Positions 17,542-46,643 of a stretch of 64,000 nt of DNA are shown here, piece after piece. Numbering within the stretch: position 1 is the stretch's first letter; each line of letters starts with the position of its first letter. The notes under the pieces were generated by a model that saw only the letters and a list, made by a program, of their open reading frames with translations, ran no database searches and was not told the origin of the DNA. The position numbers and the translations under genes are program-made. The DNA comes from Thermococcus nautili (GTDB lineage Archaea; Methanobacteriota_B; Thermococci; Thermococcales; Thermococcaceae): positions 434,001 to 498,000 of the forward strand of contig NZ_CP007264.1 in the NCBI RefSeq assembly GCF_000585495.1. The letters run 5' to 3'.

Positions 17542-20500
17542 CTTTCAATTCTCTTCGAGTCTTATTGCAACGTGAGCGCCATGGGTACAGGAGCCAGCCT
17601 GGTAATAGCTTTCAATTCTCTTCGAGTCTTATTGCAACCTTCTATTTACCGGCACCACCAAGACCAAGACAGAAACTTTCAATTCTCTTCGAGTCTTATT
17701 GCAACGCTCCTCTCTTAGCCAAGTGCTCTATCCTGCTCCTCCACTTTCAATTCTCTTCGAGTCTTATTGCAACTATAGGACGACGGTAACACTATCAGAG
17801 GTCCACGTGCTTTCAATTCTCTTCGAGTCTTATTGCAACTTCCCTGGCGGACGTGGCCATCGAGCTTGAGCTTCTCTTTCAATTCTCTTCGAGTCTTATT
17901 GCAACATACACGCCAACAAGTGTTGATACAACTTCAAACACTCTTTCAATTCTCTTCGAGTCTTATTGCAACGCTGGCGACAGGCTCTGAGGACGTTGAG
18001 AAGGTTTCTTTCAATTCTCTTCGAGTCTTATTGCAACAAGAAAAGTGGGGTCGTGAAGGGTAAGGAGTGGCTTACTTTCAATTCTCTTCGAGTCTTATTG
18101 CAACCCAGCTGTGGAGCTTCGCCCTCCAACCGCCTTTCTTGCTTTCAATTCTCTTCGAGTCTTATTGCAACGCGGACAACGCGCCTTCCAAGGCGCGCCT
18201 TGAGATACCTTTCAATTCTCTTCGAGTCTTATTGCAACAAAGGCGAGGTCTGGCTGGCTGAGCGTTTAGGCCCTGCTTTCAATTCTCTTCGAGTCTTATT
18301 GCAACCTATTTTCTTTGATTCTCCACCCTTGAGGTAGATGCCTTTCAATTCTCTTCGAGTCTTATTGCAACTTGTTCGCCGGGCATCCGCCTGACACTGA
18401 CGGGACGACTTTCAATTCTCTTCGAGTCTTATTGCAACACTCAGTTCTGTTTTTATAGTATCCCTTCTCGACGACTCTTTCAATTCTCTTCGAGTCTTAT
18501 TGCAACGTTATTTCAAGGACTTCGCCATGAACTTGCCCTACATTCCTTTCAATTCTCTTCGAGTCTTATTGCAACAGGCACATGTTTCGGTATTTTGTGA
18601 AGGCTCAACAACCTTTCAATTCTCTTCGAGTCTTATTGCAACACGCCACCACCATAACCGTAACTCTCTCAGATAACGACTTTCAATTCTCTTCGAGTCT
18701 TATTGCAACATAGCTCCCTCACCCGAGTAGGACCATCAGCACCTGCTTTCAATTCTCTTCGAGTCTTATTGCAACCTCTTTCAAGAAGTCAAGGACTGGG
18801 GAGCGGATCCCCCTTTCAATTCTCTTCGAGTCTTATTGCAACACCTCGGGAGGCTTCATAGACCTTAAGAAGTATTTCGCTTTCAATTCTCTTCGAGTCT
18901 TATTGCAACCCTCGACCGCGAGGCGCGAGAGATTGTTGATAAGGTGCTTTCAATTCTCTTCGAGTCTTATTGCAACGGATGGCCACCGCTCCCATGCCCA
19001 GAGCATCCTCCGCTTTCAATTCTCTTCGAGTCTTATTGCAACTCTGCATTGTGAGCGCTGATAGTGCTCCAGGTTTTTGCTTTCAATTCTCTTCGAGTCT
19101 TATTGCAACCTGTATGAGGGTGCTCATACACTCACTTTCGAGAAAAGCTTTCAATTCTCTTCGAGTCTTATTGCAACCCAGAGACTTAGAGCGGATCCTG
19201 ATAATGTAGCTCCCTTTCAATTCTCTTCGAGTCTTATTGCAACTGGGTTTTGCTGGGTTCTCCTACGTGGACAGAAAAACCTTTCAATTCTCTTCGAGTC
19301 TTATTGCAACGTGGAGTGGCTGGTGGATATATAGGTGGAGCGATCCTCTTTCAATTCTCTTCGAGTCTTATTGCAACCATCACAATACGCTCGTTCGGCA
19401 AAACTGAGACCTTCTTTCAATTCTCTTCGAGTCTTATTGCAACCAGAGAAGGCCGTTCCAATTGGGTGAACATCATCAGCTTTCAATTCTCTTCGAGTCT
19501 TATTGCAACGCACAGCTGAAAGAGAAGCTGAGGAGTCAGCAGGACATCTTTCAATTCTCTTCGAGTCTTATTGCAACCTACTGAAGTCATTGCGTCGCTG
19601 AAATGGAAAATGCAGCTTTCAATTCTCTTCGAGTCTTATTGCAACTTTACGAGCCGAAGCAGAGGGTCATCATCTGGTTCAACTTTCAATTCTCTTCGAG
19701 TCTTATTGCAACTGCAATAAGCCCGTACTCTAATAACACCCGCTCTGCCACTTTCAATTCTCTTCGAGTCTTATTGCAACCGCGGTAATCAGCTTCCTGT
19801 TCAGTTTTGCTTTAGGGAGCTTTCAATTCTCTTCGAGTCTTATTGCAACATTTTCTCATTCAGCCCCTCCACAATCGTTTGAATATCTTTCAATTCTCTT
19901 CGAGTCTTATTGCAACCACTTTCAGCGCAGGGTATGCTTCGGCCTGGAGCCTCTTTCAATTCTCTTCGAGTCTTATTGCAACTTTTTCTCCCACTCGTAG
20001 CCGAAGCGTTCAAGCTCGTCTTTCAATTCTCTTCGAGTCTTATTGCAACCTCATTGATGAGGTTCAGAACCTCCTCCAGCACCCCGACTTTCAATTCTCT
20101 TCGAGTCTTATTGCAACACGCATGGCGTTGGAGATAGAAGGGGAAGCGAAACGCCTTTCAATTCTCTTCGAGTCTTATTGCAACAATCAACCGTGTAATA
20201 CCTCAATCCCACGAAATGGACTTTCAATTCTCTTCGAGTCTTATTGCAACCAGGCCAAGGGACGAAAGCCTTGGGGTGAGTTCGTTCTTTCAATTCTCTT
20301 CGAGTCTTATTGCAACCCAGTTCTCGCTCTATGACGTTGACTCAGTCATCTTCCTTTCAATTCTCTTCGAGTCTTATTGCAACTCGAAGTCATCAACTTC
20401 ATACAGGGCAGAGCAGAACGCTTTCAATTCTCTTCGAGTCTTATTGCAACTGGTCTCGTTAAAGAGAGTCGCCACGTTGCCGCTACTTTCAATTCTCTTC

Positions 20501-21179
20501 GAGTCTTATTGCAACTCTCCACATTGAGGCAAAGAAGTTAGATAATACGCCTTTCAATTCTCTTCGAGTCTTATTGCAACACGAACCTTCCTACTCCTGG
20601 CCTCCTGATAATAGAAGCTTTCAATTCTCTTCGAGTCTTATTGCAACAAAGGTTAAGGCCCTGGTCGAAAAGGGCCTCTTAATCCTTTCAATTCTCTTCG
20701 AGTCTTATTGCAACGGTAGCAATATTGCATTTTTCACTGCAAATGAGCACTTTCAATTCTCTTCGAGTCTTATTGCAACGCGGTTAAGGTGGGGTTGAGA
20801 TGGGCGACATAACGCTTTCAATTCTCTTCGAGTCTTATTGCAACGAGGTTAAGGTAGGCTCGATGAGTCAGGAGAACATGACTTTCAATTCTCTTCGAGT
20901 CTTATTGCAACACGGGTCAGGGACGAGATGAAGGCTTTTTGCGTTGCTCTTTCAATTCTCTTCGAGTCTTATTGCAACTATTAGAATTTCCTTATCCTGT
21001 GCTGTGGCGTTGAACCTTTCAATTCTCTTCGAGTCTTATTGCAACGAGCGTTAAGGAGCTGGAGATAAACAGGGAACTAAACCTTTCAATTCTCTTCGAG
21101 TCTTATTGCAACAGGGGGTGGTTTGTTTGGTTAAGGTGCGTAACATCTTCTTTCAATTCTCTTCGAGTCTTATTGCAAC
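17542..21179 (-). CRISPR. CRISPR array, 55 repeats of 30 bp and 54 spacers
   Basis: On the plus strand the repeat reads CTTTCAATTCTCTTC then GAGTCTTATTGCAAC. All 55 copies I located look identical, starting at 17542, 17609, 17676 and so on to 21150-21179. Spacers are 35-39 bases, mostly 36-37. The reverse complement begins GTTGCAATAAGAC and ends ATTGAAAG, closely like the Pyrococcus furiosus repeat whose ATTGAAAG becomes the crRNA 5' tag. Transcription is therefore on the minus strand, from about 21200 leftward. The leader side (right) has a promoter and the left end has a decayed repeat, which agrees. No cas genes lie in the window, so the array must be served by Cas proteins encoded elsewhere. 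Confidence 0.98.
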
Positions 21180-42651: not shown

Positions 42652-43408
<757 letters not shown>

Positions 43409-43475
43409 TCCATCACCCCTGCCCTTTGCCTGTTAAATGTCTTCTTCAGCGAGAAAAACGTTCATCCCCAGGCGA

Positions 43476-43937
43476 TTAGGAACCTTTAAAATCTTTTGGT
43501 TTTCGTCCAGGGCCATTCTTGTTCCCAAAGGCATAGGAGAGGTAGTAGTGTATCAGCTCCTCCACCTTCGAGAAGTCCCGCTCCTCAAGGCCCAGCATCT
43601 TCCTGAGGCGCCTGTTCTCGGCTATCAGCCCTGAAAGGGTTATGGCAAGGTTCTGGTTGTCCAGGGCGGAGTAGTACGTCCTGAACTTCAGGGGAGACCA
43701 GTGCCCCTCAAGTTCGTAAAGCCTCTCTTCGAGCCCCTTTATCTCCTCCTCCAGTCTCGCAAGTTCTTCCTCGTCAACTTCCTCATCAAGGTAGCCGTCA
43801 AGGAGTATTATCCTAAGGGCCTCCTCCGCTCGGAAACCGTTCCTCCTGCAGGTCTCCTCGATTCTCTTCCAAAGCTCGTCGGGGACGTTGAAATGAACCT
43901 TCCTCCACCTGCCCTTGGCCCATACCGTGACCTTCAT
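43476..43937 (-). CDS. Small protein with RHH-like N-terminus and coiled coil
   Basis: 153 residues, no named family. The N-terminal KVTVWAKGRWRKVHFNVPDE then LWKRIEETCRRNGFRAEEAL looks like a ribbon-helix-helix DNA-binding motif. Residues about 55-80 (EEELARLEEEIKGLEERLYE) form a coiled coil. Its ATG overlaps the stop of the coiled-coil gene upstream by four bases. Last gene before crcB in the riboswitch-led operon; it could be a local regulator (inference). Confidence 0.68.
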   Translation of the reverse strand: MKVTVWAKGRWRKVHFNVPDELWKRIEETCRRNGFRAEEALRIILLDGYLDEEVDEEELARLEEEIKGLEERLYELEGHWSPLKFRTYYSALDNQNLAITLSGLIAENRRLRKMLGLEERDFSKVEELIHYYLSYAFGNKNGPGRKPKDFKGS

Positions 43938-44239
43938 CGCATATCCCCCAGGCGCTTTCTGAGCTCCGCGTTTTCCCTGCTCAGCTCGCTTCTCAGCTCA
44001 AGCATGTAACTCCGGTCCTCTTTCGCCTTCTTCTCGAACTCAACGAGTTCCCTGTAGTTGGTTTCCATCTCTTCAAGCTTCCTGAGCAGTCTTTCCCTCC
44101 TCTCGAGGAGGAGCCTGAGCTTTAGGGCCTTCAGTGTTCTTTCAAGGCCTTCTACATCCCTCAGCCTCTCTTCAATCTCCTTCCGGTTTCGCCTGATTCT
44201 ATCAAGTTCTTCACCACTCACCTCAATCTCAACGGCCAA
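43934..44239 (-). CDS. Small coiled-coil protein
   Basis: 101 residues, almost entirely charged helix with heptad spacing (LERTLKALKLRLLLERRERL, LLRKLEEMETNYRELVEFEK). No enzyme motif. It overlaps both neighbours: 22 bases with the DUF6062 gene and four with the RHH-like gene. Probably a structural partner of those proteins. Confidence 0.68.
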   Translation of the reverse strand: MAVEIEVSGEELDRIRRNRKEIEERLRDVEGLERTLKALKLRLLLERRERLLRKLEEMETNYRELVEFEKKAKEDRSYMLELRSELSRENAELRKRLGDMR

Positions 44240-44889
44240 CGTTTCTCCCTCCTCTCCCTCCGCCCGCGTTCTGGGCCGACTTCCCTACCTGCAAGGAATT
44301 CCACTGCTTCAAGTATCGCCTTCCTCTCTGCCTCCGTGGGTTTTCTTCCGGCCCGGTAGTCAAAGCTCTTTATGAGTCCTTCAAGCCTCTTCCTCAGCCC
44401 TTCGAGCTTTCTCTTCTGAACCTCTGAGAACCTTCTCCTCAGGCTTTCGTCGGTAATCTCCCTTAGAACTTCCCCGTAATGTCTCCTGCAGAGGATTGCG
44501 GGCGAGTTCTCGTAAGCCTCGATGAGATTTGGAAGCCTGTCGGCGAGGGATTCGATTAGGATTCGCTCCTTCTCTGCCGTGAGCCTGCAGAGGAGACACT
44601 CCTCGGTTTCATTCTCCCCGCGCAGGTAGCTCTCAAGAACGTCCTCGTAAATGACGGAAACCCCGTGGGGGCCAAGAAGGGGATTGGAGAGGGCCAGCCG
44701 GAGGACCTTCCAGGCGTGCCTCCTGCAGAGGCCCCCGCTCCTTCGAAAGGCCCTCCTGACGGCCGGGTCATTGGGGTGCTCGTAGAGTATGGTCTCAATC
44801 TCTTCATCCTCGAACTTCTCGACTAACCTGCAGACCGGACAGCCCGGTTCTTCCATTGCCCTTCGGAGTTCGGCCTCTATAACGTCCAT
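44218..44889 (-). CDS. DUF6062-like protein with Cys-X2-Cys and Cys-Arg-Arg-His motifs
   Basis: About 223 residues. Two CxxC pairs (GCPVCRL, ECLLCRL), each followed some 45 residues later by a CRRH segment (GLCRRHAWKVLRLA, ILCRRHYGEVLRE). This gives two similar metal-binding half-modules, probably zinc or iron. The C-terminus is very basic (RGRRERREKRWPLRLR). Start placed at ATG 44889; GTG 44898, overlapping the upstream stop, is possible. Function unknown. Part of the fluoride-riboswitch operon. Confidence 0.72.
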   Translation of the reverse strand: MDVIEAELRRAMEEPGCPVCRLVEKFEDEEIETILYEHPNDPAVRRAFRRSGGLCRRHAWKVLRLALSNPLLGPHGVSVIYEDVLESYLRGENETEECLLCRLTAEKERILIESLADRLPNLIEAYENSPAILCRRHYGEVLREITDESLRRRFSEVQKRKLEGLRKRLEGLIKSFDYRAGRKPTEAERKAILEAVEFLAGREVGPERGRRERREKRWPLRLR

Positions 44890-44897
44890 AGGCTCCA

Positions 44898-45764
44898 CTA
44901 AAGGTAACGCATCATCGAGTCAACGACCGCCAGCGCGCGGTAGGTGTTCTGGAAGTTGGATATTCCCAGTTCAAGGCTCCTCCTGAAGCCGCCGTTGGGG
45001 TTCTGGAGCTGGCGGATGAACCAGACGTGCCTCCTCGGACAGGTGGGGGTCTCGTTCTGAAGCTCAAGGCCTCTCGTTGCGTAGAACGTCGGCTCAAGGT
45101 ACGGTGGAAGGCTGTAAGGCACCTCGGTGAACCCACCCCAGTCACCGCAGAGCTCACAGTTCCTGAAGTGGGGGCTCTTGGGCGGGCGGTAGCCGAGGGT
45201 GTAGAGCGTGAAGAGGGCCTGGTAGGTCATGGTCGTGGTTGGTTGCTTGACGCCGTAGCCGTTTCCGTTGCGGAACTTCATCACGAAGGCCCTAATCGCG
45301 TCCTTTTCTGTGGAATCGAACTTTAAGCCAATCTGGTTGAAGGCTTTGGTGACCCAGTAGGTGGCTTCGAGCGGTGTCGCCGTTCCGAACTCCTCGCTTC
45401 CTCCGAGTCCGACCGCGAACTTGCCTTCCGCGGGGTTGTACTTAGTGAAAACGATGTCGCTCTTCTCCCTTGCGACGTCCTTGGCCCCGAGCAGGGCGAG
45501 GCCTTCGAGCGCCATCGCTATTGCCACGACTGCAGTCTGGGGCTGGATGGCGTTGCTCAGGAACTCAATGGTTTTCTCAGGCTCGGGGAACTCAATGCCG
45601 AGGAGGTTGTAGATTTTAATCGCGTAGTAGGTATCGTTCACGTTGGTATCGTCGAGAACGCTAACGAAGCAGTAACCTCCATCTTCGTGTCGCCTGTCCG
45701 TGACGTATCGCAGGACGGCATCAACGTCAACGTAACGTCCGATTTCGTAAAGCTTCGAGCCCAT
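44898..45764 (-). CDS. Terpenoid-cyclase / prenyltransferase-like alpha-alpha toroid protein
   Basis: 288 residues made of repeats like those of protein prenyltransferase beta subunits and squalene cyclases: RHEDGGYCFVSVLDDTNVND, WVTKAFNQIGLKFDSTE, QNPNGGFRRSLELGISNFQN. A CELCGDWGGF cysteine pair may bind metal. Which reaction, if any, it catalyses is unknown, and the cyclase DxDD motif is not seen. It is the first gene after the fluoride riboswitch, with GGGAGGTGAG ahead of its ATG, and overlaps the next gene by stop/start. Confidence 0.75.
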   Translation of the reverse strand: MGSKLYEIGRYVDVDAVLRYVTDRRHEDGGYCFVSVLDDTNVNDTYYAIKIYNLLGIEFPEPEKTIEFLSNAIQPQTAVVAIAMALEGLALLGAKDVAREKSDIVFTKYNPAEGKFAVGLGGSEEFGTATPLEATYWVTKAFNQIGLKFDSTEKDAIRAFVMKFRNGNGYGVKQPTTTMTYQALFTLYTLGYRPPKSPHFRNCELCGDWGGFTEVPYSLPPYLEPTFYATRGLELQNETPTCPRRHVWFIRQLQNPNGGFRRSLELGISNFQNTYRALAVVDSMMRYL

Positions 45765-45780
45765 TCTCTCACCTCCCGTG

Positions 45781-45847
45781 GAGAACAGGCGTCATCAGCC
45801 CCTTTCGGGCGGTTCGGGCTCGAAGCCCCGGGCGGACGCCATCGCCC
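45781..45847 (-). ncRNA. Fluoride riboswitch (crcB RNA motif)
   Basis: On the minus strand the RNA reads GGGCGATGGCGTCCGCCC, an extra hairpin GGGCT-TCG-AGCCC, then GAACCGCCC-GAAA-GGGG and CTGATGACGCC. All conserved parts of the crcB motif are present: the GGGCG/CGCCC stem, GATGG, AACCGCC, and GGCTGATG. The diagnostic pseudoknot is perfect, GGCGTC (loop) pairing with GACGCC (3' side). The short third hairpin is a tolerated variation. It starts about 20-25 bases after a TATA box, so it forms the very 5' end of the mRNA. It ends a few bases before the GGGAGGTGAG ribosome binding site of the toroid-protein gene. Confidence 0.92.
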
Positions 45848-45865
45848 GTATTCACTCGGAGTGGT

Positions 45866-45944: not shown

Positions 45945-46643
45945 ATGGAGTTCATAGGCTTCACCTACGTCACCAACTTCCTTGAAAACACCCTGAAGGA
46001 CGCGATGTTCGAGGTCGTTGACGAGGCCAACAGGCTCTTCGCGGACTGGGGCCTGCGGGTGAGGTTCATCTACCTCGACAGCCTGACCCTCGAGCCGGGC
46101 TACCTGATAAACGTCAAAACCCCAGAGGGCACGGTAAGGCTTTACCCGCTCGAAGTCCTCGTTGATTTCCTCGACTACCGCCTCAAGGTTGAACTTGAGA
46201 AGGATGATGAAATCGCCATGAACAAAATCCTCGGCCTGATAAGCTTCCCGCTCGCGTCGAGGAACCGCTACTTCGACTTCTACGAGAGCTTCTTGGGATT
46301 CCAGGCAGAGAGACTCGGCAGGAGGATAATGGTGCTCTCCATGAGGCCCTTCGAGTCGGACGTTCTGAGAATGACTCTGAGAACCCTTGAGAACCCCCAC
46401 GTGGAGGAGGAAGTTAAGCGTCTCGCAAGGAGAATTCTCTCGCGCGAGCTCGAGACCTTCAAGGGGCGCCTCCTCAAGGGCATCCTTCACGAGGTCGGTC
46501 ACGCCTTCGGCCTTGAACACTGCTCCAACCCCTGCGTCATGAATCCTCCGGCAACGATGGAGGAGTGGGACTCCCGGCCGGCGGTCTTCTGTGATTCCTG
46601 CATGGAAAAACTGAACGAGAGCTTGGGGAGCTTCACCCTTTGA
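45945..46643 (+). CDS. amzA: Archaemetzincin metalloprotease
   Basis: Zinc peptidase of the metzincin clan, 232 residues. The extended motif HEVGHAFGLEHCSNPCVM (from about residue 182) supplies three zinc His residues and the catalytic Glu, then CxM. A downstream CDSC pair provides a second structural zinc. This is the archaemetzincin signature. Aminopeptidase-like activity is known for human relatives; the archaeal substrate is unknown. Its 3' end overlaps the convergent peroxiredoxin gene by 11 bases. Confidence 0.93.
   Translation: MEFIGFTYVTNFLENTLKDAMFEVVDEANRLFADWGLRVRFIYLDSLTLEPGYLINVKTPEGTVRLYPLEVLVDFLDYRLKVELEKDDEIAMNKILGLISFPLASRNRYFDFYESFLGFQAERLGRRIMVLSMRPFESDVLRMTLRTLENPHVEEEVKRLARRILSRELETFKGRLLKGILHEVGHAFGLEHCSNPCVMNPPATMEEWDSRPAVFCDSCMEKLNESLGSFTL

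Follow-up and report, generated by a model that had tools for sequence, protein, structure and literature searches.

A fluoride riboswitch of Thermococcus nautili with an aptamer partly complementary to the opening codons of the adjoining gene

The occurrence of crcB RNAs in archaea was described by Weinberg et al. 2010 (PMC2864571), also before formate hydrogenlyase genes, among others. In T. kodakarensis (PMC4247193), an 86-nt crcB RNA lies upstream of TK0513 "rather than" crcB, and the start site of crcB itself (TK0514) is located between TK0513 and TK0514. Two papers (PMC8241225, PMC11077080) cite Speed et al. 2018 for having validated the fluoride riboswitch of Thermococcus by experiment, and one of them (PMC11077080), seemingly with reference to the same work, describes the switch in use in archaeal hyperthermophiles as translational. 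Validated riboswitches are very few in archaea; the Thermococcus one serves as a genetic tool. In bacteria, the terminator-based fluoride switches of B. cereus and T. petrophila (PMC11077080) are ON switches, in which ligand binding favours the pseudoknotted aptamer over a helix that competes with it.

In this work, we analysed a window of 64,000 nucleotides of T. nautili (contig NZ_CP007264.1, positions 434,001 to 498,000), which carries one such element. The locus shares with the Rfam family of fluoride riboswitches (RF01734) the consensus, stems P1 and P3, the six-base pseudoknot, the position in a 5' leader and a crcB gene further down; it differs in having an insert hairpin whose loop can pair with the coding sequence, and a toroid protein as the product of the first gene. 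With the TK0513 leader (PMC4247193) it has in common the RNA family, the archaeal group and the placement before a gene other than crcB, so that this placement is true but already published. The mode of action proposed below would resemble that of the bacterial terminator switches, except that the competing strand would be the start site and codons of the mRNA instead of a terminator. The proposed codon-pairing platform appears to be new and is well supported by comparison of relatives: no description was found in the literature searched, the accessible text of PMC4247193 included, while Speed et al. 2018 lay outside that search and may contain one.

The aptamer, its promoter and the genes behind it

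The covariance-model search gave a minus-strand match to the full RF01734 model (1-64), with E-values of 1.2e-11 against all Rfam and 8.7e-14 in the whole-genome search, and it was the single copy in the 1.98-Mb genome (Table 1). The sequence-only reading had placed a complete crcB-type aptamer at 45781-45847, near this match; every element that it named was found, the six-base pseudoknot was perfect as it had described, and the covariance score was significant. In the ON structure (P1, P3, pseudoknot and insert hairpin), six pairs covaried across 75 distinct relatives, with 20 cells of the comparison changed on both sides, a level reached by none of 500 shuffles. The pseudoknot was paired in 100% of cells, a U-A to C-G compensation included. 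From these sequence comparisons, it is near certain that the element is a genuine fluoride riboswitch of the known archaeal family.

Table 1. Features of the riboswitch locus (positions in the window)
Feature	Position	Strand	Evidence or remark
Fluoride riboswitch aptamer (RF01734)	45779..45855	-	52.3 bits, gathering cut-off 34; ON-structure covariation
P1	45847-45843 with 45834-45830	-	aptamer stem
P3	45810-45807 with 45801-45798	-	aptamer stem
Pseudoknot 5' strand GGCGUC	45835..45840	-	partner 45788-45793; perfect
Pseudoknot 3' strand GACGCC	45788..45793	-	partner 45835-45840; perfect
Insert hairpin GGGGCUUCGAGCCCG	45815..45829	-	insertion in cmscan alignment, outside Rfam consensus; loop complementary to toroid codons 2-5
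AACCGCCC, ligand-core joining strand and P3 5' strand	45807..45814	-	in most relatives complementary to the spacer GGCGGU between Shine-Dalgarno and start codon
Shine-Dalgarno GGAGGUGA of toroid gene	45769..45776	-	sequence
GGGCUCGAAGC, last start-codon base and codons 2-5 of toroid gene	45752..45762	-	complementary to insert loop 45816-45826
TATA box TTTTAA	45869..45874	-	predicted transcription start ~45856; BRE/TATA placement conserved relative to aptamer, 88 leaders
Gene A, alpha-alpha toroid protein, 288 aa	44898..45764	-	PF00432 40.1 bits; AlphaFold; Foldseek; synteny
Gene B, DUF6062	44218..44898	-	PF19538 53.6 bits
Gene C, short protein, probably coiled-coil	43934..44239	-	no family above cut-off
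Gene D	43476..43937	-	no family above cut-off
Gene E, CrcB/Fluc fluoride channel	43037..43408	-	PF02537 105.3 bits; TIGR00494 94.9 bits, cut-off 80.45
Gene F, DUF190	42652..43032	-	PF02641 132.3 bits; 4 bases after crcB

As had also been proposed from the letters, the aptamer begins where the TATA box predicts the start of transcription. Family-wide, the BRE/TATA elements occupy a fixed place, at roughly -34 to -22 relative to the GGCG core (88 leaders). With the TATA box placed for a start at the aptamer, the latter is an element of the 5' leader, and CrcB is the product of the fifth gene of the putative unit. The divergent gene adjoining the riboswitch promoter (45945-46643, plus strand) encodes a Peptidase M54 (archaemetzincin-like), which is found beside the riboswitch in many relatives.

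Behind the aptamer, six genes follow each other on the same strand, nearly gapless, with 67 nt (43409-43475) left before crcB. Since the fifth encodes CrcB and the sixth DUF190, the run looks like a fluoride operon. The sequence-only reading had spoken of an operon whose first gene is not a fluoride gene; this was literally right, and the product is indeed an alpha-alpha toroid protein (PF00432) and not a transporter, but CrcB and DUF190 had been missed. The AlphaFold model of the gene A protein is a confident toroid (pLDDT 90.7), whose nearest Foldseek neighbors are protein prenyltransferase beta subunits (best E 2e-6, TM by query mostly 0.57-0.73). The fold is common to these and to squalene cyclases, at a low sequence identity of ~9-18%. 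With regard to the zinc-binding Asp-x-Cys ... His set, the family has just one invariant Cys (C32) and an invariant H246. By its predicted fold the protein is an alpha-alpha toroid, and our claim stops at the fold.

Complementarity between the leader and the start of the toroid gene

The comparison comprised 94 genomes of the window's family (Thermococcus and other Thermococci). RF01734 was above cut-off in 86 of them, and 103 riboswitch loci were read, 88 with gene A immediately next and 15 with a NuoH-like gene behind. In the window, codons 2-5 of the toroid gene (GGC-UCG-AAG-C) have their complement in the loop of the insert hairpin (GCUUCGAGCCC), and in 75 of the 88 leaders a helix of 11-16 bp can join the insert with codons 1-5. 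Codon 2 was GGC in 83 of 83 leaders (usage 35%). Codon 3 was TCG in 80 of 84 (95%), and this cannot be explained by amino-acid constraint, because gene A uses TCG for only 11.5% of its serines. Among 162 conserved codons, codons 3 and 2 ranked first and second for abnormal conservation. Furthermore, where K4E substitutions occurred (AAG to GAG), pairing was retained through G-U. A null model of synonymous recoding gave ~2% per locus, a value bounded by the three codons involved, and more weight therefore lies on the codon test across the family.

In most relatives there is a second helix, between ACCGCC of the aptamer core and the spacer GGCGGU that separates the Shine-Dalgarno sequence from the start codon. 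It is kept in 94% of cells, and one locus (L051) presents a double compensation within it. Taken together, codon and spacer helices are paired in 95.3% of cells, compared with 29-49% when the columns are slid by one to three. In the predicted ensembles of the 88 leaders, codons 2-4 were paired with the aptamer at a mean probability of about 0.7-0.9 at 37 and 85 °C, and the duplex of each aptamer with its own start site was of -34 to -46 kcal/mol against ~-18 with start sites of other archaea, in energy models that leave out the pseudoknot, Mg and fluoride. Covariation of the helices proposed for the OFF state was not significant (codon helix: one double change; 237 of 500 shuffles as high), because they hardly vary. 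Judged by these comparisons, the complementarity appears to be conserved at the nucleotide level, beyond what the protein requires.

Natural losses of the insert point in the same direction. When the insert was intact the codons were intact as well (75/75 leaders; L091, in which the script flagged an AG inside GGGGCAGCTTCGAGCCCG, was counted as intact by eye, since the full complement is retained). In the 13 leaders with an altered or missing insert, the codons were changed in seven and kept in six, and the seven are spread over at least five gene-tree branches. In three of them (G022, G045 and G065), the aptamer most closely resembles the genome's own second riboswitch, which has no insert, as if it had been replaced through gene conversion. 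The N-termini encoded there are MVSKF, MRTDL and MTSKL, in place of the usual MGSKL; this drift indicates that the toroid protein does not need the MGSKL residues.

Proposed mode of control and alternative explanations

The match between part of the sensor and the opening codons suggests that translation is blocked until fluoride binds. We infer that the leader is a translational ON-type fluoride riboswitch with the aptamer-codon pairing as its expression platform, and we give this reading a probability of roughly 0.7. Without fluoride, the insert loop would pair with toroid codons 2-5 and, in most relatives, ACCGCC of the ligand core and P3 would simultaneously pair with the spacer before the start codon. 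In this OFF fold the start site would be buried and, as the spacer helix would break P3 and the ligand core, the aptamer core would be disrupted. Fluoride would stabilise the aptamer (P1, P3, pseudoknot and closed insert hairpin), which could then reclaim its strands; the Shine-Dalgarno sequence and AUG would be freed and the toroid gene translated, perhaps with the genes behind it. It should be noted that the codon helix alone is compatible with the aptamer core, and that exclusion comes only from the spacer helix, of which the window has lost a part. Should the codon pairing hold, the turn-on mode is directly testable, expression vectors without the native first codons would behave differently, and the family would offer a clear case of riboswitch folding that constrains a protein sequence.

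Another aspect to consider is the target of the switch. The unstudied toroid protein is its constant partner across the whole archaeal family, and among 115 genomes of the phylum gene A was confined to this family, with none in the 21 further genomes. In 72 of the 88 loci, crcB followed gene A no further than 6 kb downstream. In eight genomes of one genus (g3, probably Pyrococcus), crcB was not within 6 kb (it was elsewhere, not found, or present as a fragment only), while riboswitch and gene A stayed together. One g3 genome (G012) had no crcB match and an intact gene A, and of the aptamer only the 3' end GATGGCGCCTATTCT was left (L159, 731-900); this is a riboswitch caught after its loss. It could be argued that the toroid gene is a passenger and that the switch is kept for the downstream crcB, a view that concerns the target and is compatible with a translational ON mechanism. 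It would agree with G080, where the riboswitch is absent, gene A is a pseudogene and the adjoining crcB is intact, and with the stops or frameshifts in gene A of G068, G069 and G076. However, the g3 arrangement argues against it, T. kodakarensis crcB has a start site of its own (PMC4247193), and it is with gene A, not with crcB, that the codon pairing links the switch, all of which makes the passenger view doubtful to us. The opposite and broader proposal, namely that in Thermococcales the coding sequence is the expression platform, that selection on RNA folding dictates the N-terminal codons and with them MGSKL, and that the toroid protein is the main target and an undescribed fluoride-response protein, CrcB being secondary, can be offered only tentatively.

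The window is not the cleanest example of the family, given that its spacer pairing has shrunk and a hairpin has been added. In its clade the spacer reads GGUGAGAGA and the spacer helix is reduced to 4 of 6 bp; in the predicted minimum-energy fold of the window's leader, the codon helix persists and is joined by a start-site hairpin, UGUUCUCC/GAGAAUG, at the Shine-Dalgarno sequence and AUG. In this small clade, the OFF state would probably consist of the codon helix plus the hairpin of UGUUCUC with GAGAAUG. The presence of this hairpin, and of its counterpart helix in 97.3% of cells family-wide, would also suit an ordinary riboswitch controlling translation through the local start-site hairpin only, the codon complementarity being then a side effect of conservation in MGSKL and in a hairpin. 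We regard this as unlikely: TCG stands in 95% of leaders against 11% of gene A serines, the N-terminus varies freely once the insert is lost, and the 5' strand of the hairpin, UGUUCU, is conserved even in second copies lacking a partner strand. Very improbable is transcription attenuation, in which fluoride would prevent premature termination of the leader as in bacterial fluoride switches; the mechanism is known in Bacillus cereus (PMC11077080), and the 86-nt T. kodakarensis RNA (PMC4247193) could be a terminated leader, but between aptamer and start codon there is no long T-run in the window or its relatives, nor was an intrinsic terminator overlapping the pseudoknot, as in bacterial-type fluoride switches, found in the leader, and the start codon of gene A lies just 12-44 nt past the aptamer match (88 leaders; in three loci the script chose an in-frame upstream ATG).

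A second leader type, other archaea and neighboring elements

The 15 remaining loci (L054, L078, L088, L092-L098, L100, L101, L104, L106 and L121), none of them in the window, carry a second fluoride riboswitch before the NuoH-like gene (PF00146; membrane subunit of a hydrogenase or similar complex). Their spacer is in all 15 GGAGGU-GACGCC followed by UUG or GUG, and GACGCC repeats the 3' strand of the pseudoknot. From its sequence, this spacer could capture GGCGUC, which would make it a related platform.

Extension of the mechanism to all archaea was rejected, as the swap test on 15 other families gave no overall signal (KS p = 0.17 versus swapped partners). Single families looked similar: spacer GGUGUC against GACACC in f68 (L203), spacer GACGCC in f53 (L192), CCUAUCUC with GAGAUAGG in f76 (L186/L199), and in f3 (L175) a minimum-energy fold that joins the start region to the aptamer.

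Loci of genus g3 bear a stable stem-loop directly before the aptamer, within ~60 nt upstream (L077, L080, L082, L085, L087, L089, L090 and L091), with the conserved loop GAUGARCCGAAACCGGYAACGGRAGUAGG and compensating stems; it gave no Rfam match. Further genomes of the family carry loop variants in many copies, G059 as many as 13, and some of these lie at contig ends, a copy pattern as expected of a mobile repeat. Elsewhere in the window, a CRISPR array on the minus strand (17542-21179) contains 55 repeats, all matching CRISPR-DR6 (RF01319) with equal score.
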